Source of the DNA: Ilex aquifolium
Lineage: Eukaryota; Streptophyta; Magnoliopsida; Aquifoliales; Aquifoliaceae
Direction of reading: 5' to 3'
NCBI GenBank assembly: GCA_951799425.1
Contig: OX637399.1
Coordinates: 33,639,701-33,703,700, forward strand
Length of the DNA: 64,000 nt
Positions 4,328-50,417 of the stretch are shown piece after piece. The position numbers and the translations under genes are program-made. Numbering within the stretch: position 1 is the first letter of the stretch; every line of letters starts with the position of its first letter. The notes beneath the pieces were generated by a model. The model had not been told where the DNA came from. It did no database searches and saw only the letters and a program-made list of their open reading frames with translations.

Positions 4328-4568
4328 GAGTCTGTCAGACAACCGTGTGACCATCCCAGCCTTGACCTGCTGAGAACGATCCTCTACTGCCCTGTTGTCC
4401 CAGAACAAGGGCCAACAGAGCTGTTAATCACGCTCCGATCACACGGTCACATTTCATCCACCAGCACACGGTCACATTTCATCCACCAGACTTGGTTTCC
4501 TTTCTCCTTAGAACACAAGGATTCGGAGGTACGAGCCTATAGAACAGATCCTGTTCAAGTAAGGTCGT
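4328..4568 (-). ncRNA. U3: U3 small nucleolar RNA (C/D type), copy 1, with 25-bp internal duplication
   Basis: Read on the minus strand, the RNA starts ACGACCTTACTTGAACAGG, the conserved plant U3 5' domain (boxes A' and A) that pairs with pre-rRNA and guides 18S processing. Box B is seen as GAGCGTGA (about 4430-4437) and box D as GTCTGA (4335-4340). A USE plus TATA promoter sits upstream and a T5 run lies 11 nt past the 3' end, as expected for Pol III-made plant U3. This copy is longer than the usual ~218 nt because a 25-bp segment (4440-4464) is repeated exactly at 4465-4489, near the C' box. It may be impaired or a pseudogene. The exact 3' end is inferred from box D. Confidence 0.88.
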
Positions 4569-5435: not shown

Positions 5436-5653
5436 GAGTCTGTCAGACAACCGTGTGACCATCCCACCAGAGTGAACTGCTGGGAACGATCCTCTACTGC
5501 ACTGCTAACCCAGAACAAGGGCCAACAGAACTGTTAATCACGCTCTGATCACACGGTCATAATTCATCCTCCAGACTTGGTTTCCTTTCTCCTTAGAACA
5601 CAAGGATTCGGAGGTACGAGCCTATAGAACAGATCCTGTTCAAGTAAGGTCGT
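5436..5653 (-). ncRNA. U3: U3 small nucleolar RNA (C/D type), copy 2
   Basis: The minus strand starts with the same conserved plant U3 5' domain as copy 1, followed by box B (GAGCGTGA), a C-like box and box D (GTCTGA, 5448-5443). The length of about 218 nt is typical of plant U3. USE and TATA promoter elements are upstream and a T5 run (5419-5423), then a T10 run, are downstream. Unlike copy 1 there is no internal duplication, so this is the better candidate for a working gene. The role in early pre-rRNA cleavage in the nucleolus is family knowledge. Confidence 0.93.
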
Positions 5654-32463: not shown

Positions 32464-33153
32464 GGATCCAGCTCCTCTGCTGTTCTTAAAACAGCACAAC
32501 TTTGTGCCTTTTTAAAAAAAATCAATCAGACCCAAAAGCAAGGGTTGTACCACATAGATAGATCAGTGACTCATATAATATAATTTTTTTTTAAAATTTT
32601 TGTACATATTAAAATTCGAGCCGACTAATTAAAATTTAAGTCGATTAAAAATTATATTTTTTACGTATTAAAATTTGAGCCGATTAAAATTCGAGTCGAT
32701 TTGAGCTCTACTTAAGCTGTTAGTCCCGATTAAAATTTGATTCGAATCGATTAAAATTTATATTTTTTTATTTATTAAAATTCGATTCAAATTGATTTAA
32801 ATTGATTTTTTACGTATTAAAATTTGAGTCAATTAAAATTTATATTTTTTAATGTATAAAAAATTGGATCGATTAAAATTTGATTTGAGCCTCGAATAGA
32901 ATTTTAATCGGCTCAAATTTTAATACGTAAAAAATATAATTTTTAATCGACTTAAATTTTAATTAGTCGGCTCAAATTTTAATATGTACACAAATTTTAA
33001 AAAAAAATTATACTGCATGAGTCACTGATCTATCAATGTGGTCCAGCCCTTGCTTTTGGGTCTGATTGATTTTTTAAAAAAAGGCACAAAATTGTGCCGT
33101 TTTAAGAACAGCAGGCGCTGCTGTTCCTCCCGAACAGCAGAAGAGCCGGATCC
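32464..33153. mobile_element. Mutator-like MITE, 690 bp, long terminal inverted repeats
   Basis: CATGTCATCT occurs at 32454-32463 and 33154-33163, an exact 10-bp direct repeat right at both ends. The element starts GGATCCAGCTCCTCTGCTG and ends with its diverged reverse complement (CAGAAGAGCCGGATCC). The arms pair for about 200 bp, including AGACCCAAAAGCAAGGG and GTGCC motifs. The interior is made of repeated AAAATTTGAGTCGATT-type motifs in both orientations. No coding sequence. Confidence 0.88.
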
Positions 33154-33267
33154 CATGTCATCTACGCTAAAGTTAAATACCTTTGATTGAGCAATTTAAT
33201 GAGCTTGACTGACAGCTACTTCGAGTTTGTAAGCTTGGTTGTAGTAAAATCAAAATAAAAAAGTGAA

Positions 33268-34181
33268 AGAAAAATTTCAGTTATACCTCTTCTAGTTTAT
33301 CATATTTTCATCTTCACTAACACCCTATGTCAAATTAAAGGTATTAATTAGAATATAATTTTACTAAATTACCCATGATATATTTGAGAAAAAATTTTAT
33401 CCACACCACCTCTAGATAGACATATCTTCAATGAAACCCCATCTATTTTCTAAATTATTTTATGTATTAAAATACTAATTGATTAAAATTTGATTCGAGT
33501 TAATTAATTTTTTTTATGTATTAAAATTTGAATCGATTAAAAATTATATTTTTTTACATATTAAAATTTGAGCCGATTAAAAATCAGCTCGAATCAAATT
33601 TTAATCAACTCGCATTGAATTTTAATCAACCCAAATTTTGATACATAAAAAAATATAAATTTTAATCGATTCAAATTTTAATACGTAAAAAAAATAAATT
33701 TTATTCTACTTGAATCGAATTTTAATTGACACAAATTTTAATAAGTAAAAGAATATAAATTTTAATCCACTCGAAGTGAATTTGAATCAGCACTAATAGC
33801 TCAAGTAGAGCATAAATTGACTCGAATTTTAATACGTAAAAAAATTAAATTTAATCAACTCGAATCAAATTTTAATCAATTCAAATTTTAATATGCAGAA
33901 AAATAAATTTTAATCAACTTGAATTTTAATATGTAGAAAAATAAATTTAAATTTGCTAGAATTTTAATCGAATTTTTTGTAGAAAAATTGTTTGGGGTTT
34001 ATATGGGGGCATTTTTAGTATTTTAGATGAATTTTTTTTGTTAGAAATGATGTTTTAATAGCAAGAAGTGTCAGTAATGTTTAAATATAAACTAGAAAGG
34101 GTGTCAGTGATGTTTTTGATAATAAAAATGGTGTTCTTGAAAATATAATAAACTAGAAAGAATGTAACTAAAATTTCCTCC
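33268..34181. mobile_element. Second long-TIR MITE, 914 bp
   Basis: AAAGTGAA occurs at 33260-33267 and 34182-34189. The left end carries AATTTCAGTTATACCTCTTC and the right end, reversed, AATTTTAGTTACATTCTTTC, with TCTAGTTTAT shared further in. Inside lies a second, older end-like sequence (33390-33460) related to the TIR of the element at 9655. The middle has AAAATTTGAGTCGATT-type repeats like those of the neighbouring MITE. Confidence 0.75.
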
Positions 34182-34610: not shown

Positions 34611-36041
34611 TCAATTTTTGGTTGGGTAGGCCGTAAGGTATGTCTGGAACACAGCTAGGATAGTCTGCATGATACTCAAGGTAATGGCAAAAATTGCAAG
34701 AACAAAAGCAATGACTGTCCATGGACTGCTGAAATGAGCATGTTTCCATTCAGCCATCCAAACTTTCGTTTTGTTCTTATAATGGTTTTCAATGCACTCT
34801 TTAACATGGGCATAACCATGAGGGTTGGGCACCAGATCTGTGGCAATCTCATTGAACAGATCAGCCACCTGTTCGTCGCTGCCGAGGAAGTTGAGGAGTA
34901 CCCCCTTGGACCTTAGCTCCTCCACATCTTTATCATGATCAATGATTGAGTCCATGAAACAAACATAAGAGGTGACCCCAAAGTCATCAGGAGTGTCAGG
35001 ACAAGCTTCGTAGGCAACCAAGTTGAGAAGCATTGACTTGGTGGAGTCGTCGATGGTGATTGGAGGAAGCTTGAGGTGTGAAGAGAAGCCAGAAGATTCG
35101 AACTTGATGTCTGAAAAACGGTGGCTCTTGCTTCGCTTGAAATGGATCCCTACCGTCCTAAGCTCCTTGGCCGAGCGGTAGGAGAACCACTCACCCCTTA
35201 GGTAACACCCTCCTTCATTAAAAGCACTAACATCAATGAATTGTTCTCGAACAATCTCAAGAAGATGTGTTGGTGGATGGTCACGATCTGATCTCTCCTC
35301 GAGCCCTGGAGGGCCTTCTGGTTGTGCCCTCTGGCGGTTTATGAACATGGTGATCATTTTTTCCCCTTCATTCCTTTCAAACCTCCAATTCATTAACACT
35401 TTGAGGACTTGAAAGGGTAGTTGATTTTCTAGTAAGAAAAAATCACGACGCACAAAAGCCATATCATGGCTTTTCATCTTCAAATCTTTAGGGTTACCAT
35501 GGACCAAACAGTAGATGAATTGGAGAAGAAAGCAACCATCGAGGAACATCATACGAGCAAATGCCTTATCATCAAAGGATTCTGTTGAGTCCTCGGTGTA
35601 ACATTTCCTCGCACCCTCCACCCCCTCTTCCAACCTTTTGTATAGCTCTTGAATTGATACTTTACATTTTTTGGCATATTGCTTTGCCAGATAATCTTTA
35701 TGCTTCTCCATAGGTTCGAGCTCGGACTTGCCATGGTGGAAGGGGCCGATTGCAACGACGAGGGGATCATAGCACTTCTTGTTGGATTCGATCCCACGAA
35801 GCATTGGTGGAACCTTCTGTATCTTGGGATTCGCCAACGCGCTGCCCCCGGATAGACCCCCTTCGTTGGTTAAGGATCTTAGCCATTCATTGTCACCAGT
35901 TGGATCGATTTGAATGCTTAACTCCTCAATAACAGGGGCATGTAAGTTTCTGCCACTGCTCCCTTGACCCTCCTCTCTTCGAACCATTGTCCTCCTTCTA
36001 GACACCTCCTCCATGACAATCATCTCTTCTGGAGCTGCCAT
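34611..36041 (-). CDS. DUF247 family protein, 476 aa, intronless
   Basis: The start is the ATG at 36041; an upstream in-frame TTG at 36059 is not a credible start. The DUF247 (UPF0481) layout is clear. The entry motif VPPMLRGIESNKKCYDP is followed by VAIGPFHHGKSELEPMEKHK, the FLDGCFLLQF core, and FFLLENQLPFQVL. A stretch of conserved hydrophobic segments then leads to a C-terminal membrane helix (about residues 443-468, WTVIAFVLAIFAITLSIMQT). Family members are plant membrane-anchored proteins of unknown biochemistry; some in grasses are tied to self-incompatibility. Single-exon structure and length are normal for the family. No frameshift or stop is seen, so the gene appears intact. It lies about 1 kb from the Tat retrotransposon insertion. 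Confidence 0.93.
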   Translation of the reverse strand: MAAPEEMIVMEEVSRRRTMVRREEGQGSSGRNLHAPVIEELSIQIDPTGDNEWLRSLTNEGGLSGGSALANPKIQKVPPMLRGIESNKKCYDPLVVAIGPFHHGKSELEPMEKHKDYLAKQYAKKCKVSIQELYKRLEEGVEGARKCYTEDSTESFDDKAFARMMFLDGCFLLQFIYCLVHGNPKDLKMKSHDMAFVRRDFFLLENQLPFQVLKVLMNWRFERNEGEKMITMFINRQRAQPEGPPGLEERSDRDHPPTHLLEIVREQFIDVSAFNEGGCYLRGEWFSYRSAKELRTVGIHFKRSKSHRFSDIKFESSGFSSHLKLPPITIDDSTKSMLLNLVAYEACPDTPDDFGVTSYVCFMDSIIDHDKDVEELRSKGVLLNFLGSDEQVADLFNEIATDLVPNPHGYAHVKECIENHYKNKTKVWMAEWKHAHFSSPWTVIAFVLAIFAITLSIMQTILAVFQTYLTAYPTKN

Positions 36042-36694
36042 TTTGGGGGGTTTAGCCAAGGTGAATATGCTACTATGGAATGTTTGAGGTCATTCATACT
36101 ATAAGTACTGTGTATAATTAGTTTTTTGCTTTTTGTTCTTTTACTTGTGAAAATTTTCTTGCTCATCAAGCTTGGAAAATGCTCTCCTAAAGAAATAGTA
36201 TTGTATTCTCTCTTCTTTAGTTTTAGAATAAAATTGAAAAAAGAAAAAGTTAAAGAGGTAAAGAAAAAAGGAGAAAATATACAATGCAACGGTGATACTG
36301 TGTCAGCATTGACGACATGGTATCATCAACCTATAGTAAAATTTCAAATAGGTAAAGTGAACTCCACTTTGGTAGTCATTGACTTACATAGAAGAATAAT
36401 GAGTAATTATCTGTTTACCGTTACAATGAATATTTTTTCAGAAAGAAGGGAGATTTGAAAGAAGTGAATGATCTTTCAATCTTGAATGAATCAGATACAA
36501 TCAACCATTTTCATAACCTGGTAAACAATGAAACTGCAACTGCCCTCATTGCAGCTAGCTCCATGTTGTTGTTAACCTTATGGTCCATAAAATGCAAAAC
36601 TAAATATTCATGATATCCTAAATGTTCTCTTTAATAAGGTTGTTTCACCAGGTTTTCTACCCTATACAACTTTGACCCAAAAAATTGGGAAGAG

Positions 36695-37048: not shown

Positions 37049-37053
37049 AAGAC
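37049..37053. repeat. Target-site duplication AAGAC, left copy
   Basis: AAGAC directly precedes the left LTR; the same five bases follow the right LTR at 50413-50417. A 5-bp duplication is standard for Gypsy integrases. Confidence 0.95.
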
Positions 37054-37773
37054 TGATGGCGTAAACCTTCGGATACGAGCTATAGGACCAAATTAATTGG
37101 CGTGAGCAGTTTGCATGGGGACTAATATGGCATCTGAGCTACAAGGCTCGTGAAGTGGGGAATGAAAGCTCTAATTAGTCGTGTGTAATGTGTGAAATAC
37201 AATAGAAATATAGTGGTTCACCGGCTGATGAGCTCGGCTAGTCCACTCTCTAATGGAGGCTCTTGCTCCTGTCTCTTTATTGATCTAATTCAATAAGTTA
37301 CAACAGAATTCTCAAGGTATTAGGGTTTCAAGTTTTTTTTCTTCTTTTCTCAATGGAAGCTGCCCCTCCTCTTTATAGCCTCATGCTTACCTCTAATTCG
37401 GGGTTACTTCCTTTATTGTAGGGATCGTCCCTATCTTCTTCTATAATCTCGGGCTTTCCTAAACCCCTTATGGCTGACCGCGGATGGCGAGTTCTCTGCC
37501 TTGTGTTAGGGGATTCTCTCCTTGGTTTTAGGATAGGATCCTGGCTGGTAGCGGATTTCTTGCCTTGGATTGACTTAACTCCCCCTGTTCGGGTATCTAC
37601 TGCCTTTTTACTGCCCTCTCATTGTTTCTTTAGCTCATGTCTTTAGTTGGGAATATAAGTTCCGATTGGGCGAGCTCAGACCTTGCTGGATGAGCTCAGC
37701 TTAGTTCTCCATAAACTCCCGAACTGAGCTCTTTTCCTGAGCTCAGATCTGGGGTTTACTTTAGGTGTCATCA
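37054..37773 (-). repeat. 3' LTR of the Tat element (left copy)
   Basis: 720 bp, TGATGGCG...GTCATCA. It differs from the right LTR at 37491 (G here, A at 50130) and 37568 (G here, A at 50207). Confidence 0.98.
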
Positions 37774-37792
37774 GTTGCCCCCCAGCCCTTGC
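37774..37792 (-). other. Candidate polypurine tract of the Tat element
   Basis: On the minus strand the last bases before the 3' LTR read AAGGGCTGGGGGGCAAC, a G-rich run interrupted by pyrimidines. The place is right for the plus-strand primer, but the tract is not pure purine. Confidence 0.45.
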
Positions 37793-37842
37793 CTTGAGTT
37801 AGCTCAGGCAGGGGATGACCTGCACAAGACGAGTTACACATG

Positions 37843-37859
37843 CACGTGGCTAACACGTG
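37843..37859 (+). promoter_or_regulatory. Paired G-boxes upstream of the first antisense gene
   Basis: CACGTG occurs at 37843-37848 and again at 37854-37859, five bases apart, just inside the LTR and about 560 bp upstream of the first antisense gene's ATG. G-boxes bind plant bHLH and bZIP factors. Their use as a promoter for this gene is inference. Confidence 0.45.
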
Positions 37860-38414
37860 ACTGGAGGATTTCTGACGGTTTGTAGTCATCATGACTTTCC
37901 TCGATTCCCGCGCATGTCTCAGCCCACGTCTCCCCAGCTTTAAATGCTCAAAACGGCTATCTAAACCGCTTCTTCGCACTATTCATCTTCTTTACTGCTC
38001 TCCCTATTTTCTCTGCAACTTCGGACCGTGGTACCCTTCTGTTTTCTTGCTTGAAATCGCATTTCCAGCCCTTGTTTAGAAGACTCGCATCGCCTCCTTC
38101 CTCCGATAGTGCCCCAGGTTTCCGTTCGCTGCCATTTCTGAGTTAGGTACGTCCTTTGCCCCCCTTTTCCTCTTCCTTTTGCTCTGGATCCCTCGAATTC
38201 GAGGTGGTTACTGCATTTTTGGGCTTTTCGATTCTTTTACTTTTGGAATCGCGACCATTGCTTAGCTCCCCTTCCTCATTTCGTCGATTGGAGCTCTATA
38301 ATCCACATCCTTGCCGTCGGGAGTTACTGTGCTGACCCTAGGGTTATTAGGGAGAGTTTGATCAGTGTTCCCCCTCTCTATCGCTCTTTTATCCTTCCTT
38401 TTTCCTGCCCGACC

Positions 38415-41032
38415 ATGTCTGCCTCTTCTGGAGCCACGCGTTCCTCTGTTTCACTTTTAGGGTCTAGGTCAGCCGAGGAAGATACTGAATTAGGGGAGGT
38501 AGGTGAGGAGATAGATAATTTCCCTGGGGTGGATGTTGTAGAAACCGAGGTCGGTACTGAGGGACCTCCTTCCCAGCCTTCTCCTGTGTCCTCCAAGCCC
38601 AACAAAGGCAAGGGCAAGGTTAGCGGAGTCGGGGTTGAGGAAAAAACCTCGTACTTGGGGCTTGCTTTTAAGCATGCTGAATCGGTGGGGTACAGTAAAG
38701 AGGCCCCTGGGCTAATGAAAACCTATAAGGTTCGGTATGGTTTTCCTCCTGGGGTCGAACCCTGGTGTCCAGACCAATCCGTCTACTATGTAGAAAAGGT
38801 GCACAATAGGGTCTGCTTTTTCCTTGCCGCTTTTGACAACGGCCTTCGCTTTCCTGTGCACCCCTTCATCAAGGCCGTTCTGCAGCATTTTCATGTGTGC
38901 CCTTCCCAGATTTCCCCCAACTTCTATGGCGTCATGGTTGGTCTGTTAGTCATATTTAAGAAGCATAAACTTGGGATTCCTAGCATTCCTTTGTTCTTAG
39001 AGCTCTTCAATGTTAAACCGACCTCCGGAGGCTTCTTGTACGCCTCCAAGCGTGCCAGCATTAGGCAGCTCATCTCTGATATTCCGACCTCCCATAAACA
39101 CTGGAAGGAACATTTCTTCTTTGTCGGGGGCGCCAATTGGGAGTACAACCCTGCTGATAAAACAGACACACTCGGTATTCCTACGGCCTGGGCTGAACCA
39201 GATAATTTGCGTGAGTCCTTACTTAAGTCCGAGCTCTGATCTGACATTCGCCGGCCCCTCACCTTTTTCTCACTTGCCTACTTTCTTTCTCTCAGGTGAA
39301 CGCTACGAGCTCAGTCCTGAGGACAAAAAGGTGCTAGCCAAGTTGGAAAAGATCAAGCCAGAGAAGTACGCCGACTTGATTGAGTCAAGGAACCTAGTAC
39401 AGCTAGGTCTGAGTCTTCCTGTGGCGACTTTAGCGATCCCATTATCTGTTTTAGGGGCTGACGAAGGTAATTTCAACTTTTCCTTTCTTCATCATTTTCC
39501 CTTCTCTTCTCTTTTCCTTTACCTTATCCTATTTCTTCCAGATCTTCCGGGTCCTTCTACCATGAAATCTACCCCAGAAGAGATCCAGGCCAAGGTGGAT
39601 GAGCTAATGAGAGGTGGTAGATCTAGCAAGCGCAAGGCCCGGGCTAGTACTGGGAGTGGTCCAGGTACCCGGGCCAAAATCCCCAGATTGGAGGTATCTT
39701 CCTCCCCCTCTGCAGCGGAGGGACAGGTTCCAAGTAAGGCTCCACTCTCCTCCTCTGGGACTCCACAAACTGCAACCGCCTTTTCTCCTCCAGTGGCCCC
39801 TTCTAGGTTGACGTCTGCTCAAGAGGGGGGTCAAGCTTCCCCTTCTTCTTCTGAGGTCGAGGAGGCTTTGAAATTGGTTCCCGACCTTCAGCCCGAGAGT
39901 TTCAAATACAGCGCTTCTGGGAAGGTGATTGAGAAAGAGAGAAAATCTGCGGAGGAAGATGAGGACTCCTTTTTCGACAACATGGATCTTGCTGCGGGAG
40001 CTCTGTCTTCTATATTTTCTGAGGCTGATGTCTTGAAGGCCGCTTCCATGCCACTGGAGGAGTCCATCGACTCAGCTCTTCAAGGAGCAGCCGCTGTAAG
40101 TGCTAATTCCCTTCTTTGTTTGTCCATTCTAGTTTCATGGTCTGTTGCAACCTGCTGAGCTTTCCTTATTCTCTTAGGCTGCCCTCCATGTAAAAGGTCT
40201 GCTGCATCGGGTTAGGTCCCAAGAGAGCTCTTTTCAGGTCTTGAAGAAGTTTAAGACCAAGGTTTCTGAACTGTCTCTCGAGAATGAAGACCTCAGGGCT
40301 CGGGTGGAGAGCCTCAAAGTACAAATGGAGGGCCTCAACGAGCAGACGATGAAGCAAGCTTCTGATCTCAAGCATACGTTGACAGTCAAGGTCAGAGCTG
40401 AGGAGGGGGAGAAGAAGGCTCGGGATGAGCTGAAGTTGGTTAAGGAAGACCTGCAGGTTAAGGTCGAGGCGTGGTCCAAGGCTAACCAGGAGGCCTTCGA
40501 TGCCAAGAAAGAGCTCATCCAGGCCAATCAAGACTATCTTACCCTCAGCGAGGCTAACGGCAAACTCTGTGAGGAGCTCGAGGAGCAGAAAAGTTTGGTC
40601 CAACAGAAGGACAAAGAGATCGCCGAGCTGAGAGACGAGGCCACCACCCTGTGGGCTACCGGATGGCTTGCTTTCAGGCGCAAGGCTATCAAAACTTTTC
40701 CAGACCTTAACTTCAATTTTTCTACCCCTACCACAGAAGAATTGGAGGAGTCTAGCTCTGATAACGAGGAGGATGCCTCAGTTTCCCCCGCTGCTGCTTC
40801 GAGTCAGGACATACCTGCCCCTGGGACCTCTAGAGCTCTTGTCGTGCTTCCTGAGCCTTCAACAGCGATCCCTGAGCTCATTGGTGTAGATCCTGCTGTT
40901 GCACCAATTTCTGCAAACTTGGTGTCTGAAACCCTTGCCCAAAATCCTGAATCAACGGAAGCGGGGTCCCAAGACATTCCTGGAAGCTCTCCCCTAGCTC
41001 CTATTGCTGAAGGCCCTTCTGCTGAGCCCTAA
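38415..41032 (+). CDS. Tat antisense gene 1: Transposase_28-like domain plus coiled coil, 791 aa, four exons
   Basis: Exons: 38415-39210, 39296-39466, 39542-40095 and 40178-41032. All three introns are short (75-85 bp) and GT-AG, and the joined frame is 792 codons. An in-frame TTG at 38358 lies upstream, but ATG at 38415 (CGACCATGT) is the natural start. After an acidic, Ser-rich N-terminus, residues about 95-250 (GLRFPVHPFIKAVLQHF, HKHWKEHFFFVGG) resemble the plant-transposon domain called Transposase_28. The middle is Ser/Pro-rich. Residues about 520-660 form a long heptad-rich coiled coil (LEEQKSLVQQKDKEIAEL), followed by GWLAFRRKAIKTFPDL and a low-complexity tail. The gene lies opposite to gag-pol. 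Its function is unknown; despite the domain name it has no transposase residues I can see. Confidence 0.85.
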
Positions 41033-41494
41033 TTTGGGCTTGGTCCTCGTGTTACTTTGTGAACCTTATCTTTCTTTTCTTTTGTTGGTTTAGCATCCAT
41101 ATGCGTATACATATCTCTGATTTTTAATTTGGACTTCAACTGCTCACTTACCTGCTTTGCTTTATTTGCTCAGTATATATTCCCCTGCCCCCTTTTGCTT
41201 TGAGTGGGGCCGTGCACTTCTTGAAGCAAAAATACTAGATTGAATAGTAAGGGAGACTTGGTGTTATGCTCAACTGATTTTCCTGTGTTTTTGAGTTCGG
41301 TAAAGAGTATCTTGGGGATCCCTTCCCTCTTCTTCTTTGTTCTGAGCTGTTTGACTTGGTATTCTGAACTGGCGTGCTCCTCCTGAGCTATATAGCTCGA
41401 GTATGTTAGGCTGTGAGTTCTTCCCGAGCTGTACAATTCTTTCTATGAACCATAAAAGCTCTTACTGAGCTTTTTGGCTCTGCTGTCTGAACTC

Positions 41495-41499
<5 letters not shown>

Positions 41500-41537
<38 letters not shown>
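41500..41537. repeat. T38 homopolymer between the two antisense genes
   Basis: An uninterrupted run of 38 T residues about 470 bp beyond the stop of antisense gene 1. On the element's coding strand it is an A-run. Confidence 0.95.
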
Positions 41538-41538
<1 letters not shown>

Positions 41539-42012
41539 AGAAGGATAACAAATTTCATTGCTCTTATTTTCTGAGAAGAGAATACTTTCTTCTACTCTTC
41601 ATATTTCTTTTCCCCTGCCTTGCTTTAAGGAGTGCTTTTTCGACAGGGCTAGGCTCAAATACGGAGGATATGTGGCTTGACGGGGTCAGAATGTTTCCTC
41701 GTTGTTTTGAACGCAATATAAGGAGGGGGGGTAGTATCTGATTTCTTTTCCCGCGTTTTTCTCTCAACATCTTCCTATAACCGTCACGTCTTTCCCCTTT
41801 CCATAACCGCAACCACTTTCCATAACCGTAGCCCCTTTCCATAACCGCTACTACTTTCCACAACCGTCCCTACCTTCATTGATTAGGAAACCAAACAGGC
41901 GACCTGATTCCCTATTTTTTGGCTCTTTGTTTCCTGAAAAGCACCCAAGTGTGTGACATATTCTTGACTTTCTTCTTGATTTCTTGCGTCTTTTTCCTTA
42001 CCAGCGCTTTCG

Positions 42013-43101
42013 ATGGCTGCCCCTGCTTCTTCTCTGTTCCATGAACGATCCTCCTCTGGAATCAAATGGAAGTGGCATCGTCGCTATTTGTCCCCCTCAA
42101 TACTTGAATCTTCTGATTTAGTGGACATCAAGAAACGTTTTTTTCCTGATCTTGATTTGCCTTTGCGAGTCTCTTCCTCCGACGAGCCTTGCAATTACCT
42201 CCCCCGAGGGGAGGTCTGTTTCTTCGAAGGTGCTATGGGCATGGGACTTCGCCTTCCCATTCATCCGGCCATTGGGCGAGTTCTTGCCTATTATGGCCTG
42301 TGCCCTTCTCGCCTCTCTCCACGAGGATGGGCTGCTATGATAAGCTTTTTCTTGTTCTGCCGCTTGCATGCTCTTGGCAGGTTCCCCTTTGTCTCTGAGT
42401 TCCTGTATTTCTTTGAGATTGAGGAAGATGATGCCCCCTGCTTCAGTTTCTTCCGTTGGAGGGATTTCAATTTACGCCCTCTGGTTCTAGATCTTCCCTC
42501 CAACCCTGAAGGGTGGTCTGAGCGTTTCTTCTTCGCTTCTGGAGAGGCTTGGAGGTCTCCTGAGGATCGCTGTCGTAAAGCCAGGATTCCTCGGTCCTGG
42601 AAGAGCTTCTCTCGTATTGGTAAGCTCGATCATGGCTCTTTTGAGTACTTTCCTTTTAAAAATATGCTCTGATTATGCCCTTGCTGTGTAGATCCACCTG
42701 ACCTGGATTTACCAGGGATGGTGAATATCAACGAGTTGTTGCTTGTGGAGTCTAAGACTTATTCCGAGCTGATGACGAGCGCAAACCTCTATTTGCTTGG
42801 GGCTGAGGCTACTGAGTTTGAGTTTTCCACTATTCCTTACTCTTCCTGGACCTCTTTCTCTGATTCTGATGAGGATGGGGATTCTGACAAGGATGGAAAC
42901 ACCGTCACGAGTTCGAGGAAGCGTAAAAGGGACGATTCCCCTTCTCCTGACTCTCTGTCCACCATCTTCCTTACCTCTATTGGTCAGAAGCTCCTTAACT
43001 CGCTTCAAAAGGCTGAGCAGGAAAGGGATGAGCTGAAGAAAGAGAATGCTAGCCTGAAGGGAGAGATTGCTGAGCTGAAAACTGAACTTAAGAAAGACTA
43101 G
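42013..43101 (+). CDS. Tat antisense gene 2: shorter paralogue, 338 aa, two exons
   Basis: Exons 42013-42619 and 42692-43101 joined by a 72-bp GT-AG intron, 339 codons in all. The start (TCGATGGCT) is in good context. Residues about 30-190 carry GLRLPIHPAIGRVLAYYG, CPSRLSPRGWAAMI and GWSERFFFASGEAW. They line up with GLRFPVHPFIKAVLQHF, CPSQISPNFYGVMV and HWKEHFFFVGGANW of antisense gene 1. The C-terminus has a short coiled coil (EQERDELKKENASLKGEI). The intron falls at the same place after the domain, and in the same phase, as intron 1 of gene 1. No Ser/Pro-rich middle is present. Function unknown. Confidence 0.83.
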
Positions 43102-43406
43102 GATCTTTGTTTCCTTGTATCGTTCTTTCTTTTCTTAAGCGATATCAGACTATGACTCTTTTTGTATTTGTCTGAATATTTGTACTGTCGGATATTTCGA
43201 ATGCCAGACTTTTCATTCATCTCGAATTCTGTTAGGTTATTTCAGCTTACTCTTCTCGTTCGAAACACGAACGTAGATGGAAAACAGAAGATCATGTCTG
43301 CTCTGACCTTACTTCTCATCTGACCTCATAGGTGTTCTCTGTTGTTCTGGACCTTTCGAGGTCTTTGGGTGTGTAGGCAGTGCACAAGGGTATCTGGTCC
43401 TGGGGG

Positions 43407-43490
43407 GAGGACCATTGGTGTCTCCAAGAAGCGTTCAGCCTTGAACTTGACTGTTGGTGTCTCCAAGAAGCGTTCAGCCTTGAACTTTGT
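43407..43490. repeat. Two direct copies of a 45-bp unit
   Basis: TTGGTGTCTCCAAGAAGCG followed by TTCAGCCTTGAACTT occurs twice in succession, downstream of antisense gene 2. Confidence 0.9.
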
Positions 43491-43620
43491 ACGAGCTGAA
43501 GAGCTCGTCTTTTGTTTATAAGCCTTTGAGGCTTATCCTGTAGTTATGAGCTGAAGAGCCCATTCTTTTTGTTATGGGCTGAAGAGCTCATCGGGTTTTT
43601 ATGAGCTTTGAAGCTTATCT

Positions 43621-44083
43621 TTTGTTTATGAGCTGAAGAGCTCATCTTGCATTTATAAGCTTTGAAGCTTATCTTTTGTTTATGAGCTGAAGAGCTCATC
43701 TTGCATTTATAAGCTTTGAAGCTTATCTTTTGTTTATGAGCTGAAGAGCTCATCTTGCATTTATAAGCTTTGAAGCTTATCGTTTGTTTATGAGCTGAAG
43801 AGCTCATCTTGCATTTATAAGCTTTGAAGCTTATCGTTTGTTTATGAGCTGAAGAGCTCATCTTGCATTTATAAGCTTTGAAGCTTATCGTTTGTTTATG
43901 AGCTGAAGAGCTCATCTTGCATTTATAAGCTTTGAAGCTTATCGTTTGTTTATGAGCTGAAGAGCTCATCCTGCATTTATAAGCTTTGAAGCTTATCGTT
44001 TGTTTATGAGCTGAAGAGCTCATCTTGCATTTATAAGCTTTGAAGCTTATCGTTTGTTTATGAGCTGAAGAGCTCATCTTGCT
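43621..44083. repeat. 54-bp tandem array with two hairpins per unit
   Basis: Units begin at 43621, 43675, 43729, 43783, 43837, 43891, 43945, 43999 and 44053 (the last is partial), nearly identical. Each holds two perfect inverted repeats: ATGAGCT-gaag-AGCTCAT and ATAAGCTT-tg-AAGCTTAT. More decayed copies extend left to about 43494. The array starts about 75 bp after the gag-pol stop, in the 3' untranslated part of the element. On the minus strand it stays open in one frame (54 is a multiple of 3), but this is not evidence of coding. Confidence 0.95.
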
Positions 44084-44158
44084 TCTTTGGAGACCATTGG
44101 AGGGTGAATAAAAGGCTTGCTCTTTCTTATTTAAAAGTAGTTCTATTACAAGTAACAC

Positions 44159-47100
44159 TTACTGAAAAAACTTCTTAAGGTGCTCGGCATTCCACGAGTG
44201 AGGTAGAACCTTTCCTTCCTCTGTTTGCAACTCGTAATTCCCTGGTCTGATTATCTTTGACACGATATAGGGCCCTTCCCAATTGGGTCCCAATTTCCCA
44301 TGCGTGGGATCCTTTCTCGCAAGCAGAAGCCTCCTAAGTACCAAATCTCCAACCTTGAAACTTCTGTGTCTTACCCTCCTGTCATAGTACCTTGCCGTTT
44401 TCCTTTGGTAAGTACGGACACGGTGCAGAGCTCTGTCCCTCTTTTCATCCAAGAGATCGAGGTTTAGCAAGAGAGACTCATCATTGTGCTCGGGATCTGC
44501 AAACTCCACCCTTGGTGATTGGAGCCCTATCTCCACTGGGGCCACTGCCTCGGTCCCAAAGGCCAAAGCAAAGGGGGTTTCCTGAGTCGCAGATCTGGCG
44601 GTGGTCCTGTAGGCCCACAATACCTCCGGAATGTACTCCACCCATTTGCCTTTCAGGTTTTCTAGCTTGGTCTTCAAAGCTGACTTTATGGTTCTTATTG
44701 TGACCTCCGCCTGCCCATTAGACTGGGGATGGGCAGGAGCTGAGAAATAGTTCTTGATTCCGAGCTCGGCACAAAAACTTTTGAACTTTGAATTATCAAA
44801 CTGCTTTCCATTGTCAGATACGAACGCTCTGGGAACTCCAAACCTGCAAACTATCGACTTCCAAACGAAGTTTTGAACTTTTTGCTCTGTGATCGTTGCC
44901 AAAGGTTCGACCTCTGCCCATTTAGTAAAGTAATCCACTCCTACGACGGCAAACTTGCACTGCCCCACACCGGTGGGTAGGGGTCCCAGAATGTCTAGCC
45001 CCCACTGCTGAAAAGGCCATGGGCTTACCACCGAGGTTAGGAACTCGGGAGGACAGTGGGACATATTAGCATGCTCTTGGCAAGTTTTGCATTTCCTTAC
45101 TAAGTCGGTGGCGCTTTTGAACATGGTGGGCCAATAATATCCTTGCCTCAGTACTTTTCCTGCCAAGGCCCGAGCTCCTATGTGGTTGCCACATATCCCC
45201 TCATGTACTTCTCTGAGTATGTAGTTAGCATCTTCGTCTCCTACGCACTTAAGGAGAGGCATTGAAAATCCATGCTTGTACAGTTTCCCTTGCATCAGGG
45301 AAAATCTGGCTGACCTGGCCCTTAGCTTGGATGCCTCCTTGGCACTATTTGGCAAAGTTCCATTCTGAAGGTACTCTACGATGGGGTCCATCCAGCTCGG
45401 CTGAGCTTCAATTGACAGAATTTCCTCTTCTTCAATGCTTACCGAGGGCTTTGGAAGGTGCTCTACTGGAATTAGCCTATCCAAATCCTCTTGTGAGGCA
45501 GTTGCTAACCTTGCCAGAGCATCTGCTCGTGAGTTCTCCACTCTAGGCACGTGTCTGACCTTAACCTGCACAAACTGTTTCATTAGTTCTCGTACCTTTT
45601 TGAGGTACAGGACCATCTTCTCGCCTCTTGCCTCGTAACACTCTTCTATCTGCTTCACCACCAGTTGAGAATCACTGCAGATCTCCAGCTGCTCTGCTTC
45701 CATAGAATAGGCAAGATTAAGCCCAGCGATGACGGCTTCATATTCTGCCTCATTATTTGAAGCTTTGAACCCAAATCTGAGGGCATATTCGACGTCTATT
45801 CCTTCTGGGGAGGTCAGGATCATTCCTGCACCGCTTCCCTGAGCATTGGCGGCTCCATCCACTGAAAGCTTCCATATGGGAAGGTCCGGTACTAAATCCG
45901 TGGTTTCCATAGGCGCTGCTGCTGTGAATTCTGCAATAAAATCTGCCAAAATTTGCCCTTTGATGGCAGTTCTTGGCTTGTACCTGATATCAAACTCGCT
46001 GAGCTCTACGGCCCATTTAACCAACCTCCCTGAGGACTCCGGCTTGTGTAGTACTTGCTTCATTGGCTGATCTGTTGGAACCTCAACAGTATGAGCCTGG
46101 AAATAAGGTCTAAGTCTCCTAGCTGTTGTAATCAGAGCTAGAACGAGTTTTTCCATCCTTGGATATCTCTCCTCTGCCCCTCTCAGAGCTCTGCTACAGT
46201 AGTAGACTGGTTGCTGAGCTCTGTCTCGCTCCCTAACTAGCGCTGCACTTGTTGAAAAATCTGAAACTGCTAGGTAGAGGGTGAGGATTTCCCCTTCTAG
46301 AGGGCTCACCAGAACAGGGGGAGAGCTCATATATCTCTTTAGGTCTTCGAATGCTTCTTCACACTTGGAATCCCAGTGGAATGCCTTCTTCAAGATTTGA
46401 AAAAATGGCTGGCATTTATCGCTAGACCTAGACACAAAACGGCTAAGTGCAGCTATCCTGCCTGTCAAACGTTGCACCTCTTTTGTGTTGGATGGTGACT
46501 TCATTTCCACCATTGCTTTAACCTTTTCTGGATTGGCCTCAATCCCTCTGCTGCTGACTATAAAGCCCAGAAATTTTCCAGCCGAGACCCCGAATGCGCA
46601 CTTCGCAGGGTTTAGCTTCATTTTGTACTCCTGTAGAATTCGGAATGACTCAGCTAAGTGCTCGATGTGGAGCTCTGCTTTCAGCGACTTCACTAGCATA
46701 TCATCAATGTAAACCTCCATGGATGCTCCTATTTGCCTCTGGAACATTTTATTTACTAACCGCTGGTAAGTGGCTCCGGCGTTCTTCAATCCGAAGGGCA
46801 TGACCTGATAACAATATGTTCCCTGTTCAGTCACAAAGGAGGTCTTCTCCTGATCGCTGGGATCCATCCCGATCTGGTTGTAGCCTGAAAAAGCGTCCAT
46901 GAAACTGAGGAGCTCGTGCCCTGCAGTGGCGTCCACTATTAGGTCAATCCGAGGTAAGGGAAAACTGTCTTTGGGGCATGCTCGGTTGAGATCAGTGAAG
47001 TCGATGCACAATCGCCACTTCCCATTGGTTTTCTTTACGAGAACTACATTTGCTAACCAAGTGGGGTAATGAACCTCCCTGATAGCCTTGGCATGGAGGA

Positions 47101-49630
47101 GTTTGCTGACCTCCTCATTGATTGCTTTTTGCCTTTCATAAGCAAAGCTCCTCCTCTTCTGTTTGATGGGTTTGCAAGTTGGGTTTACGCATAACTTGTG
47201 GGTAATAACCGAGGGATCAATTCCTTCCATGTCTTCTTGCTTCCAAGCGAACACTCCTATATTCTCTTTTAGGAACTGGATGAGGAGTCTTTTGAGCTCA
47301 GCGTTTAGTTTGGAACCCACATAAACAAGGTGTTCTGATTTCTCATCAAGCTGAACTGGTTCCAGCTCTTCCGATGGCATTGGTCTTGTCTCCATTTCAT
47401 CTCTCATGTCGAGCTCATCCAGTTGGATGTTCTCGACCTCCTTCCTTTTGACAGAAGCCAAGTAGCACTCCCGTGCTACGCGCTGGTCTCCTCGGACCAC
47501 TCCGATTCCATTTTCTGTAGGGAACTTCACGACTAAATGATAGGCAGATGGGATTGCCTTTATAGAATTTAGGGATGGCCTTCCAAGCAAGATGTTGTAC
47601 GCCGATGGTGCATCGACTACTAGGAATTTGACAGTGGTAGTGGCTTGGCAAGGTGGATCCCCCAGGGTGAGCACGAGCTGGATTGAACCCAGGGGGAGCA
47701 CCCTTTCCCCGGAGAATCCCAGCAAGTGAGTGCTTACTGGCTCAAGTTTTTGTCTTCCTATGTCCATCCTGTCAAACGCAGGTGCGAAAATAATATCTGC
47801 CGAGCTCCCGTTATCAATTAGAACCCGATGAACTGTTCTATTTGCCACCACAGCTCGTACCACCAGTGGATCATCATGGGGGTATTGGCACCCTTCTAAA
47901 TCAGCATCTGAAAAAGTGATAGCTGTATCCAAGCGTGGAGCCTTGGATACAGCGTGCACTTCGAGAGCTTCTTCGGCTCTGATCCGCCGGAGGTGCGCCT
48001 TCCTAGCTGAGCTTGACTCTCCACCTCCTGCGAAACCTCCAGATATCACTCTGATTTCTCCTAGAGGCTGCTGGTGTGGTGCAGGTGCCTGCTGTCGGGG
48101 TGGCGGAGGCGGAAGAGCTCGGTTCAGGTTATCATTAGCTATAAAACGACGCAGCTGACCTCGCTGGATCAAGAACTCGATTTCCTTCTTCAATTGAATA
48201 CAGTCATCAGTGTGGTGTCCATGATCTCGATGATAATCACAGTACTTCGTGGGGTCCCTCTTTGCCGGGTCTGCCTTCATCCTAGGTGGCCATTTTAAAA
48301 ACTTCTCGTTCTGGACCTCATACAGTACTTGTGACACAGCAGCGGTGAGTGGGGTAAACCGCTGAGGCCCATACCTGGGTTGTAGTTCAGGTTGCATGGG
48401 ACCCAGCCGATCTCTGACATTTCCTCTCCTCTTTGGCGAGCGGTCTCTGTCCCTCCTTGGGGACCTCTCTCGTCCTTTTTCCTTCCTAGGGCTTCTGTCC
48501 CTTCTCTTTTCTTCTTTTTCCTTTTCCTTTCGTGAAGACGTACCGACCACCTTAGAAAGGAGTGCCTCTTCACCATTTATATATTTCTCTGCCTTGGCTA
48601 ACACCTCAGCCATACTTGCCTGAGGGTTTTTTGATATGGAGAACATCAAATCCTTTGATTGCACTCCCAACCCTGCAATGAAAGCAGTTATGGCGAATTT
48701 TTCATCCGGGACGTCTACTTTCAATGTCTCCGAGTTAAATCTTTGGACATAAGTCCTCAGGTTTTCCTGGGGACCCTGCTTCACATTCAGCAGGTGGTAG
48801 CTCGGCTTTCTGTGTATCCGGGCTCCTATGAAATGAGAGACAAAAGCAATGGAGAGTTCTTTAAAGGATGAGATCGAGGCTGGCGGGAGCCTATGAAACC
48901 AGTTTAAGGCGGAGCCTTTCAGCGTGATAGCAAAAGCTCTGCATCGTACAGGATCCTGGTACCCATGTAGCTCCATCTGGTTCTTGTAAGTGTTGAGATG
49001 ATCCACGGGATCTTTCGATCCGTCAAAGACCTCCATTTGAGGCATCCTGAATTTTGGTGGGAGAGGGAAGTGTAGCACCCCCGTGGTGAATGGGGATTCG
49101 GTTTGCTGGACCAAAACATCCATTGTAACCGGGGCCTTACTTTTTACGGCCTCCTTCATATGGCTGAGCTCTTGCTGGAAATCTTTGAAGCGTTGCTCCC
49201 AGTGCTGCTCTCTCCTGTCTTGCGGATAAGGGAAGAAATCACCTCTCTCACCCCTGTCGTTCCGACTTTGCACTTCGTCGTTAGGGCCATTATCAGGGGG
49301 TACGTAGGGGACATATCCCCTGGCCTGGCTGCCTTCCCCCCCCTCGCTGACCTCTCTATGGGGGTCCCAGTATCGAGGTTCCCTATGAGGGGGGTTATTC
49401 TGGCCTTCATGGGCCGGTGGTGCCTCTTGTGGGCGTTGTACGAGCTTTGACAGCTCTTCATTCTCCTTTAGCAAACGTTGGTTGACGAGACGCAGGGCCT
49501 CCAACTCGTTATTAATGAGGGAATTCGCCTCCTGGATGTTCCCGGGTTGCCTGCCGTGGGCAGCTTCCGGCTGATCTTGCATTCGAGGTAGGTTTGTTTG
49601 GCTTCTGCTCATATTTCGAGTTATTACCAT
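44159..49630 (-). CDS. Tat gag-pol polyprotein, 1823 aa, single open frame
   Basis: Domains in order: gag core around residues 200-330 (RAFAITLKGSALNWFHRL); a zinc-knuckle-like motif near 461 (CDYHRDHGHHTDDC); aspartic protease near 603 (VLIDNGSSADIIF); reverse transcriptase with YIDDMLVKS near 973; a first RNase H that has lost its catalytic residues (LYLAVSDFSTSAALV); a second RNase H near 1255 with LSVDGAANAQGSGAG, NNEAEYEA and CSDSQLV; and integrase with an HHCC finger (about 1471-1520) and D,D,E core (WGLDILGP, VSDNGKQFD, NGQAEVTIRTIK). There is no chromodomain. The polyprotein supplies replication and insertion of the element. No stop or frameshift interrupts it. Gag and pol share one frame, so no ribosomal frameshift is needed. 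Confidence 0.97.
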   Translation of the reverse strand: MVITRNMSRSQTNLPRMQDQPEAAHGRQPGNIQEANSLINNELEALRLVNQRLLKENEELSKLVQRPQEAPPAHEGQNNPPHREPRYWDPHREVSEGGEGSQARGYVPYVPPDNGPNDEVQSRNDRGERGDFFPYPQDRREQHWEQRFKDFQQELSHMKEAVKSKAPVTMDVLVQQTESPFTTGVLHFPLPPKFRMPQMEVFDGSKDPVDHLNTYKNQMELHGYQDPVRCRAFAITLKGSALNWFHRLPPASISSFKELSIAFVSHFIGARIHRKPSYHLLNVKQGPQENLRTYVQRFNSETLKVDVPDEKFAITAFIAGLGVQSKDLMFSISKNPQASMAEVLAKAEKYINGEEALLSKVVGTSSRKEKEKEEKRRDRSPRKEKGRERSPRRDRDRSPKRRGNVRDRLGPMQPELQPRYGPQRFTPLTAAVSQVLYEVQNEKFLKWPPRMKADPAKRDPTKYCDYHRDHGHHTDDCIQLKKEIEFLIQRGQLRRFIANDNLNRALPPPPPRQQAPAPHQQPLGEIRVISGGFAGGGESSSARKAHLRRIRAEEALEVHAVSKAPRLDTAITFSDADLEGCQYPHDDPLVVRAVVANRTVHRVLIDNGSSADIIFAPAFDRMDIGRQKLEPVSTHLLGFSGERVLPLGSIQLVLTLGDPPCQATTTVKFLVVDAPSAYNILLGRPSLNSIKAIPSAYHLVVKFPTENGIGVVRGDQRVARECYLASVKRKEVENIQLDELDMRDEMETRPMPSEELEPVQLDEKSEHLVYVGSKLNAELKRLLIQFLKENIGVFAWKQEDMEGIDPSVITHKLCVNPTCKPIKQKRRSFAYERQKAINEEVSKLLHAKAIREVHYPTWLANVVLVKKTNGKWRLCIDFTDLNRACPKDSFPLPRIDLIVDATAGHELLSFMDAFSGYNQIGMDPSDQEKTSFVTEQGTYCYQVMPFGLKNAGATYQRLVNKMFQRQIGASMEVYIDDMLVKSLKAELHIEHLAESFRILQEYKMKLNPAKCAFGVSAGKFLGFIVSSRGIEANPEKVKAMVEMKSPSNTKEVQRLTGRIAALSRFVSRSSDKCQPFFQILKKAFHWDSKCEEAFEDLKRYMSSPPVLVSPLEGEILTLYLAVSDFSTSAALVRERDRAQQPVYYCSRALRGAEERYPRMEKLVLALITTARRLRPYFQAHTVEVPTDQPMKQVLHKPESSGRLVKWAVELSEFDIRYKPRTAIKGQILADFIAEFTAAAPMETTDLVPDLPIWKLSVDGAANAQGSGAGMILTSPEGIDVEYALRFGFKASNNEAEYEAVIAGLNLAYSMEAEQLEICSDSQLVVKQIEECYEARGEKMVLYLKKVRELMKQFVQVKVRHVPRVENSRADALARLATASQEDLDRLIPVEHLPKPSVSIEEEEILSIEAQPSWMDPIVEYLQNGTLPNSAKEASKLRARSARFSLMQGKLYKHGFSMPLLKCVGDEDANYILREVHEGICGNHIGARALAGKVLRQGYYWPTMFKSATDLVRKCKTCQEHANMSHCPPEFLTSVVSPWPFQQWGLDILGPLPTGVGQCKFAVVGVDYFTKWAEVEPLATITEQKVQNFVWKSIVCRFGVPRAFVSDNGKQFDNSKFKSFCAELGIKNYFSAPAHPQSNGQAEVTIRTIKSALKTKLENLKGKWVEYIPEVLWAYRTTARSATQETPFALAFGTEAVAPVEIGLQSPRVEFADPEHNDESLLLNLDLLDEKRDRALHRVRTYQRKTARYYDRRVRHRSFKVGDLVLRRLLLARKDPTHGKLGPNWEGPYIVSKIIRPGNYELQTEEGKVLPHSWNAEHLKKFFQ

Positions 49631-49692: not shown

Positions 49693-50412
49693 TGATGGCG
49701 TAAACCTTCGGATACGAGCTATAGGACCAAATTAATTGGCGTGAGCAGTTTGCATGGGGACTAATATGGCATCTGAGCTACAAGGCTCGTGAAGTGGGGA
49801 ATGAAAGCTCTAATTAGTCGTGTGTAATGTGTGAAATACAATAGAAATATAGTGGTTCACCGGCTGATGAGCTCGGCTAGTCCACTCTCTAATGGAGGCT
49901 CTTGCTCCTGTCTCTTTATTGATCTAATTCAATAAGTTACAACAGAATTCTCAAGGTATTAGGGTTTCAAGTTTTTTTTCTTCTTTTCTCAATGGAAGCT
50001 GCCCCTCCTCTTTATAGCCTCATGCTTACCTCTAATTCGGGGTTACTTCCTTTATTGTAGGGATCGTCCCTATCTTCTTCTATAATCTCGGGCTTTCCTA
50101 AACCCCTTATGGCTGACCGCGGATGGCGAATTCTCTGCCTTGTGTTAGGGGATTCTCTCCTTGGTTTTAGGATAGGATCCTGGCTGGTAGCGGATTTCTT
50201 GCCTTGAATTGACTTAACTCCCCCTGTTCGGGTATCTACTGCCTTTTTACTGCCCTCTCATTGTTTCTTTAGCTCATGTCTTTAGTTGGGAATATAAGTT
50301 CCGATTGGGCGAGCTCAGACCTTGCTGGATGAGCTCAGCTTAGTTCTCCATAAACTCCCGAACTGAGCTCTTTTCCTGAGCTCAGATCTGGGGTTTACTT
50401 TAGGTGTCATCA
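49693..50412 (-). repeat. 5' LTR of the Tat element (right copy)
   Basis: 720 bp, 718 of 720 identical to the left LTR. On the minus strand it has a TATA element (TATAAA at 50016-50011) near the middle, so transcription would start at about 49980. Confidence 0.98.
50011..50016 (-). promoter_or_regulatory. TATA box of the Tat 5' LTR
   Basis: GGCTATAAAGAGG on the minus strand; the placement leaves an R-U5 segment of about 290 bp, ending at the primer binding site. Confidence 0.5.
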
Positions 50413-50417
50413 AAGAC
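50413..50417. repeat. Target-site duplication AAGAC, right copy
   Basis: Matches 37049-37053 exactly. Confidence 0.95.

Follow-up and report, generated by a model that had tools for sequence, protein, structure and literature searches.

The window analysed here (64,000 nt of Ilex aquifolium; assembly GCA_951799425.1, contig OX637399.1, positions 33,639,701 to 33,703,700) harbours on its minus strand one complete long terminal repeat (LTR) retrotransposon of the Tat/Retand type of Ty3/gypsy, which carries, opposite to gag-pol, two intron-containing genes with Transposase_28 (TRP28; PF04195) domains. The element is enclosed by the target-site duplication AAGAC (the same 5 bp at 37049-37053 on the left and, in the printed flanks, at 50413-50417 on the right) and by two 720-bp LTRs delimited through comparison of the pair (3' LTR 37054-37773, 5' LTR 49693-50412, both minus strand). 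With 2 mismatches between these LTRs, and with its AAGAC duplication, it is a young element, whose insertion, at the plant substitution rate of 1.3e-8 per site and year, would date to about 0.1 million years ago. Its gag-pol (44159-49630, minus strand) is a single open frame of 1,823 aa comprising gag, reverse transcriptase, RNase H, a second RNase-H-like domain and integrase, and the Pfam matches along it (RT_RNaseH 1117-1213, RVT_3 1257-1375, rve 1539-1635) show that the second RNase-H-like domain (aRH) follows RNase H and precedes integrase, as described for Ogre and Retand (PMC6317226). The 6,385 bp between pol and the 3' LTR (37774-44158) form an antisense gene cassette composed of gene 1, gene 2 and then a palindrome array adjoining pol. 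The window's own 800-Mb genome was searched for further copies.

Gene 1 lies on the plus strand and has four exons (38415-39210, 39296-39466, 39542-40095 and 40178-41032) separated by three GT-AG introns (39211-39295, in phase 1; 39467-39541; 40096-40177), with a frame that stays open across all exons. Exon 1 encodes the Transposase_28 domain (residues 133-201; 35.1 bits against a curated Pfam gathering cut-off of 26.2), exon 3 the basic motif SSKRKAR, which resembles a nuclear localisation signal (NLS), and exon 4 a coiled-coil-like part followed by a variable tail. The length of 791 aa given by the first-pass annotation is right for the window, but copies that lack an 84-bp deletion situated after 41026, at the very end of the window's gene 1, run on to codon 803 (802 aa) where their frame is open; the deletion occurs in none of the 20 close copies fetched, a non-random set in which three copies with a flagged gene-2 stop were included deliberately. 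The loss of an intron was considered as the source of this 84-nt difference and rejected, the deleted piece being devoid of splice sites. The expected end of gene 1 is reached in 15 of the 20 close copies; in six of seven aligned copies the gene, counted from residue 80, stops at 712-723 codons, and in the seventh (L059) it stops early, at 637. A basic cluster of the SKRK/RKRK type is present in all eight gene-1 sequences scanned. The region upstream (37774-38414, plus strand) contains a TATA-like TTTAAAT at about 37939, where locus L002 has TATAAAT, and a leader (about 38178-38340) for which the window and L002 show 80-95% identity, above the level of its surroundings; the TATA-like site (TTTAAA) and the leader are common to five aligned loci from about three families, and we regard them as candidate promoter parts only. 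An AG/GTACGT at about 38145 could be the donor of a leader intron of gene 1, for which no acceptor was settled.

Gene 2, on the same strand, consists of exon 1 (42013-42619) with its own Transposase_28 domain (residues 68-136; 38.7 bits, over the same cut-off), one GT-AG intron (42620-42691, phase 1) and exon 2 (42692-43101), which encodes the NLS-like SSRKRKRDD and a coiled-coil-like end; its frame is open across both exons and yields 338 aa. The coiled-coil ends attributed to both proteins are suggested by Pfam matches below the cut-off and by the look of the sequence. The expected end of gene 2 is reached in 17 of the 20 close copies, the gene stops early (codon 301) in L067, and an RKRKR-type basic cluster is found in all 12 gene-2 sequences scanned. 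Comparison of loci revealed, upstream of gene 2, repeats of CCATAACCG (41794-41867, plus strand) as candidate regulatory sequence: they precede the gene in the window, L059-L062, L064 and L066, their number varying by family, and about one copy remains in L067 and L068. The repeat resembles a MYB-type core.

The two open reading frames with three and one introns, as first described in this young Tat element, are confirmed, and their splice sites are kept across copies: every one of the 20 close copies has GT and AG at the ends of all four introns, and so does each of the 7 aligned copies (the window and six others). Within the latter alignment (where the limits of the fetched stretches truncate exon 1 and the tail of exon 4 varies) the introns of gene 1 measure 85-90, 74-83 and 82-84 nt and that of gene 2 measures 72 nt, so that three of the four introns drift in length, while exon 2 of gene 1 and both exons of gene 2 are constant and exon 3 varies by 3 nt. 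Gene-2 loci of five other families have an intron of 72-78 nt at the same place. Furthermore, the eight top-scoring PF04195 loci examined in the genome all proved to be orthologues of gene 1; in seven of them (L001, L003-L008) exon 1 is about 69% identical and the later exons 39-56%, the matches breaking at residues 267, 322-323 and 509-512, which are the exon borders, with the exon-2 match missing in L003. For the remaining one (L002, 59%) the aligner bridged intron 1. The border of intron 1 could also be followed in database proteins: 94 of the 120 listed gene-1 homologues were considered, of which 80 extend to it, and in 68 of the 80 the next two residues fit read-through into a phase-1 GT donor (RE 46, CE 10, RK 9, GE 2, RQ 1), a further 7 (HE) fitting a GT donor after one CpG transition, although the test is indirect since arginine has further codons. 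Intron 1 of gene 1 thus looks old, and scans for open reading frames (ORFs) in the TRP28 family would see mainly exon 1. The gene-2 matches, among those listed, break at residues 202-204 and include no spliced retrocopy; likewise the spliced gene-2 junction, allowing up to 3 mismatches, occurs at 0 places in the genome, a result that is neutral on splicing. We infer the splicing of both genes from the conserved splice sites; the statement of the first-pass annotation that spliced plus-strand RNA shows bidirectional transcription is not supported, as no RNA was seen. Judging from the replication cycle, the introns would outlast retrotransposition because the genes are antisense to the genomic RNA, and the RNA that is copied could not be spliced there.

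The shared N-terminal domain proposed for the two proteins is borne out, both matching PF04195 above the cut-off and BLASTP aligning them at 30% identity over 174 aa (90.9 bits, E=3e-24); their local alignment scores 229, against 63 for the best of 500 shuffles. Intron 1, in phase 1 in both genes, occupies the same place in the alignment to within a residue, as had been claimed. The relatedness of the two domains, a check set beforehand, is therefore upheld by sequence, the structure models being too poor to compare. Thirty-eight TRP28 regions were placed on an unrooted tree, 15 of them taken from this genome, 9 from the 120 listed gene-1 matches and 14 from the 16 gene-2 matches. The tree separates a clade of gene 1 with its homologues (100/99) from one that unites the gene-2 sequences of this genome (100/99), which is joined by the database protein P0121 (100/98); a third clade (99/94; P0122-P0134, one of them from Lithocarpus litseifolius) stands apart from both. 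As genes 1 and 2 fall into separate clades, the duplication is old, in agreement with the ancient origin first suggested for it. We take gene 1 to be the usual Retand TRP28 gene and gene 2 to be an old TRP28 paralogue. Full-length gene 2 found no match in the protein database at E<=0.001, and a profile of its exon 1 found 16, of which one is close (P0121, 43%). When nine places downstream of PF04195 matches were fetched, gene 2 was present in five (L064, L066, L067, L068 and L069, at 71-93% identity) and absent from L065 and L072, whose pol is 70-84% identical and in which an array and pol come directly after; the stretches of L070 and L071 (pol 44-66%) start inside pol and are uninformative on gene 2 and array, so the informative elements without gene 2 number two.

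Both genes are under purifying selection, as anticipated by the first-pass annotation, with ratios of nonsynonymous to synonymous substitution (dN/dS) far below 1. By pairwise codon maximum likelihood (six pairs per gene among four sequences, the pairs not being independent), gene 1 gave 0.22-0.47 (p 1e-37 to 2e-6) and gene 2 0.24-0.38 (p 1e-6 to 0.004), and for the near-identical pair formed by the window and L056 a value of 1 was not rejected in either gene (p 0.06-0.08). The constraint is strongest in the TRP28 exon of gene 1 (0.09-0.12, three pairs), followed by its coiled-coil part (0.18-0.20), and it is loose or unmeasurable in its tail, where the window does not reject a value of 1 against L061 (p=0.30) or L062 (p=0.11) and rejects it against L060 (p=0.015), albeit with saturated dS. 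Exon 1 of gene 2 gave 0.09 and 0.19 in two pairs, and the whole gene 0.11 against L068 and 0.14 against L067 (dS about 1), while the integrase end compared with L068 gave 0.067 (dS 0.44); the TRP28 exons of both genes are hence constrained nearly as tightly as the integrase end. A value of 1 was not rejected for gene-2 exon 2 between the window and L066 (0.56, p=0.08) or for gene 2 between L068 and L069 (0.63, p=0.26), and the ratio between the two paralogues was discarded, its dS of 2.4 being saturated. These ratios (0.09-0.47) and the kept splice sites point to selection on the proteins, and they speak against the idea that the antisense RNA itself regulates the element (by pairing with genomic RNA into double-stranded RNA and feeding small interfering RNAs) with the frames of secondary importance; double-stranded RNA from antisense transcripts is discussed in PMC7264820, and we nevertheless consider this explanation very improbable. 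Moreover, divergence is distributed blockwise across the cassette: L061 and L062 differ by 0.008 at 39785, yet by 0.14-0.26 further out on both sides, and within the same elements (L060-L062 against window positions 38660-43101) gene 2 is far closer than gene 1, a low divergence that is exaggerated because the loci were picked by gene-2 similarity. We read this pattern as pointing to recombination between elements.

Between gene 2 and pol, a dyad scan delimited an array of 18-bp palindromes (43491-44077), mostly spaced every 27 bp within a 54-bp tandem repeat (54 = 2 x 27), in which ATGAGCT-GAAG-AGCTCAT alternates with ATAAGCT-TTGA-AGCTTAT. The window array holds 18 perfect dyads (9 of the ATGAGCT type, 8 of the ATAAGCT type and one ACGAGCT-GAAG-AGCTCGT), and none of them occurs in the other parts of the element or in the 34 kb of host sequence scanned. 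The dyad array is present in 35 of 35 gene-2 loci that reach the region: both types occur in 30 of 30 loci of one set (L009-L038, the window being one), and both arms recur in all five other gene-2 families (with 20, 10, 28, 6 and 8 dyads). In the genome as a whole, ATGAGCT-N4-AGCTCAT has 11,900 exact sites and ATAAGCT-N4-AGCTTAT 7,852, against 3 and 2 for the reversed-pattern controls. When units were picked for pairing at 5 or more of the 7 arm positions, six families together yielded 99, and 88 of them are perfect dyads. In units chosen for matching 10 or more of the 14 arm letters, the arms deviate by 0-5.7%, while the 4-nt spacer and the linker differ by family; in both counts the selection by resemblance caps the deviation. 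Shuffling the array unit produced two such dyads in 2 of 20,000 trials; the Markov test of the array is weak, since the array itself trains the model. The two gene-1-only elements (L065 and L072) carry neither the ATGAGCT nor the ATAAGCT dyad arms and have at the same place a different, 41-bp array with GAACT-N4-AGTTC (of variable spacer) and an imperfect GAGCT-N4-GGCTC. Since two 4-bp dyads arise by chance in 1,156 of 5,000 shuffles of such a unit, its dyad character rests on the printed arms and spacers.

Two other explanations address the array itself. The alternation could stem from a 27-bp repeat that was duplicated and then diverged, independently of the presence of two proteins; this is compatible with every other reading, and its chances appear to us evenly balanced. 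The 54-bp period is twice 27, and at least one listed array (C1:4808886-4808984) has the ATGAGCT type alone at 27-bp spacing, whereas the change that distinguishes the two dyad types is paired and leaves the symmetry intact, and both types are present in every one of the 30 loci and five further families named above. Alternatively, the array may act as RNA, forming a row of hairpins just 3' of the pol stop that would serve export, packaging or stability, with the antisense genes having a separate role. Each dyad would fold in the sense RNA into a 7-bp stem with a 4-nt loop, and paired arm changes are seen in the one ACGAGCT/AGCTCGT unit and between the two dyad types; however, a DNA dyad accounts for paired changes equally well, the arm sequence itself is kept beyond what pairing would require, and clusters of a related half-site stand at the start of the LTR's U3. 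The 13 arm mismatches do not discriminate between hairpin and DNA dyad. We consider a role of the array as RNA unlikely.

A half-site related to the dyads recurs in the LTR: TGAGCT is found 9 times in that of the window (Markov mean 1.35; reached in 0 of 300 shuffles), and most of the TGAGCT/AGCTCA half-sites are located within the initial 140 bp of U3 (about 37634-37773), with AGCTCA clusters at the same U3 end in L001-L004. Per kb, TGAGCT amounts to 31 in the array, 12.5 in the LTR, 1.6 in gag-pol, 1.6-3.1 in the genes and 0.35-0.46 in the host, and the shorter GAGCT to 50, 19.4 and 7.9 in the first three, 10.7 in gene 1 (5.5-10.7 over the genes) and 1.0-1.2 in the host.

Two antisense genes under selection, together with palindromes that look like binding sites, suggest an element equipped with a control system of its own. 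We propose, by analogy with the VANC proteins of VANDAL transposons and with a probability of roughly 0.42, that the products of both genes are regulators that enter the nucleus, dimerise and act on the dyads and the U3 sites. Under this proposal, the mRNAs of gene 1 and gene 2 would each be transcribed from a separate antisense promoter and then spliced, both proteins would enter the nucleus through their NLS-like clusters and pair through their coiled-coil ends, the TRP28 region would bind sites of the AGCTCA type, those of U3 as well as those of the dyad array, and the bound proteins would govern, in trans, whether the family is transcribed or silenced, much as VANC does. Several points weigh against it. 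Both structure predictions are poor (mean predicted local distance difference test scores, pLDDT, of 35 and 49) and lend DNA binding by TRP28 no structural support. The VANC domains (DUF1985/DUF287) are not among the Pfam matches of either protein at E<=1, and the likeness to VANC is one of functional analogy only, with binding of the dyads and U3 sites a presumed property. The dyads could, as said, be RNA hairpins, and the array needs no gene 2, given that gene-1-only elements carry an array of their own beside pol. Finally, the LTR parts of L001-L004 show a less marked TGAGCT excess (reached in 4 to 18 of 300 Markov shuffles), the spacer between gene 1 and gene 2 shows none (63 of 300), and the frequency of GAGCT throughout the element, coding parts included, weakens the argument from half-sites.

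The same proteins might instead act at another step, such as nuclear import of the pre-integration complex or choice of the integration site, with the arrays being incidental, satellite-like repeats. The NLS-like clusters in both proteins would fit a function in import, a role in the pre-integration complex is raised in PMC7264820, and, according to PMC11963269, Retand elements commonly have tandem arrays of variable kind at this place; on the other hand, the array arms are nearly fixed between families whose gene-2 dS is about 1, while spacers and linkers change, and incidental satellites need not retain dyad symmetry or share a half-site with U3. We judge this possible, though rather less than likely. 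A more specific form of the regulator proposal, a switch of two proteins and two operators in which spliced, dimeric TRP28 regulators, one for each dyad type, would bind the array as an internal operator, along with the U3 half-sites, and so set or lift silencing of the whole family in trans, seems to us doubtful; if true, it would be an independently evolved LTR-retrotransposon counterpart of VANC.

Antisense TRP28 ORFs and tandem arrays are already known in Retand (PMC11963269), and Retand ORF4, Grande GENE23 and the gene of RIRE2 (reviewed in PMC7264820) are, as here, antisense and placed between pol and the 3' LTR. The PF04195 domain, the arrays beside pol and the proposal of a nuclear or DNA-binding role are likewise shared with the account of Retand in PMC11963269, where TRP28 is predicted to bind DNA, and the antisense protein of Grande is described as nuclear and transcribed from its own promoter (PMC7264820). 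In comparison with the Retand ORFs, gene 1 as modelled here has four exons and about 800 aa, instead of being an exon-1 ORF, and the element adds a paralogous second TRP28 gene, a dyad-structured array and U3 half-sites. The accessible parts of PMC11963269, a study that used ORF Finder, contain no mention of ORF splicing, of two TRP28 genes per element or of dyads, and our literature search, with most subscription papers outside its reach, returned no account of introns in TRP28 genes, of a paralogue pair per element or of dyads. New here is the alternating array of 18-bp dyads beside pol. VANC, for its part, binds tandemly repeated motifs in the non-coding DNA of its transposable element and removes silent marks (PMC5735166, PMC10398659); the proposed likeness lies in an element-encoded protein with short tandem target motifs in non-coding element sequence that differ between relatives. 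The differences are that VANDALs encode the transposase VANA and VANC carries DUF1985/DUF287 (PMC5735166), that the sites here are palindromes, and that VANC has been shown to bind its sites and to cause the loss of silent marks, whereas for the present element both are conjectural. The antisense genes HBZ and APH-2 of human T-cell leukaemia virus (HTLV; as described in PMC11963269 and PMC7264820) offer a further parallel of an antisense accessory gene with a nuclear regulatory product, for which no homology is claimed; the HTLV antisense promoter is described as lying inside the 3' LTR, whereas the conserved TATA-like site here lies between the polypurine tract and gene 1. The function of the Retand antisense genes was called unknown in a 2020 review and a 2025 survey. 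It now becomes testable through the multi-exon models, the constraint on the TRP28 exons, which nearly equals that on the integrase end, and the second paralogue, and candidate binding sites can be named that have thousands of exact copies in one genome.

Elsewhere in the window, a DUF247 gene (34611-36059, minus strand, with a frame of 482 aa) is located about 1 kb from the 3' LTR, and two genes for the plant U3 small nucleolar RNA (4329-4568 and 5437-5653, minus strand; Rfam RF01847) lie about 1.1 kb apart. Nested inverted repeats at 32477-33700, with 223-nt arms that are 94% complementary and additional shorter pairs, perhaps represent a foldback element.

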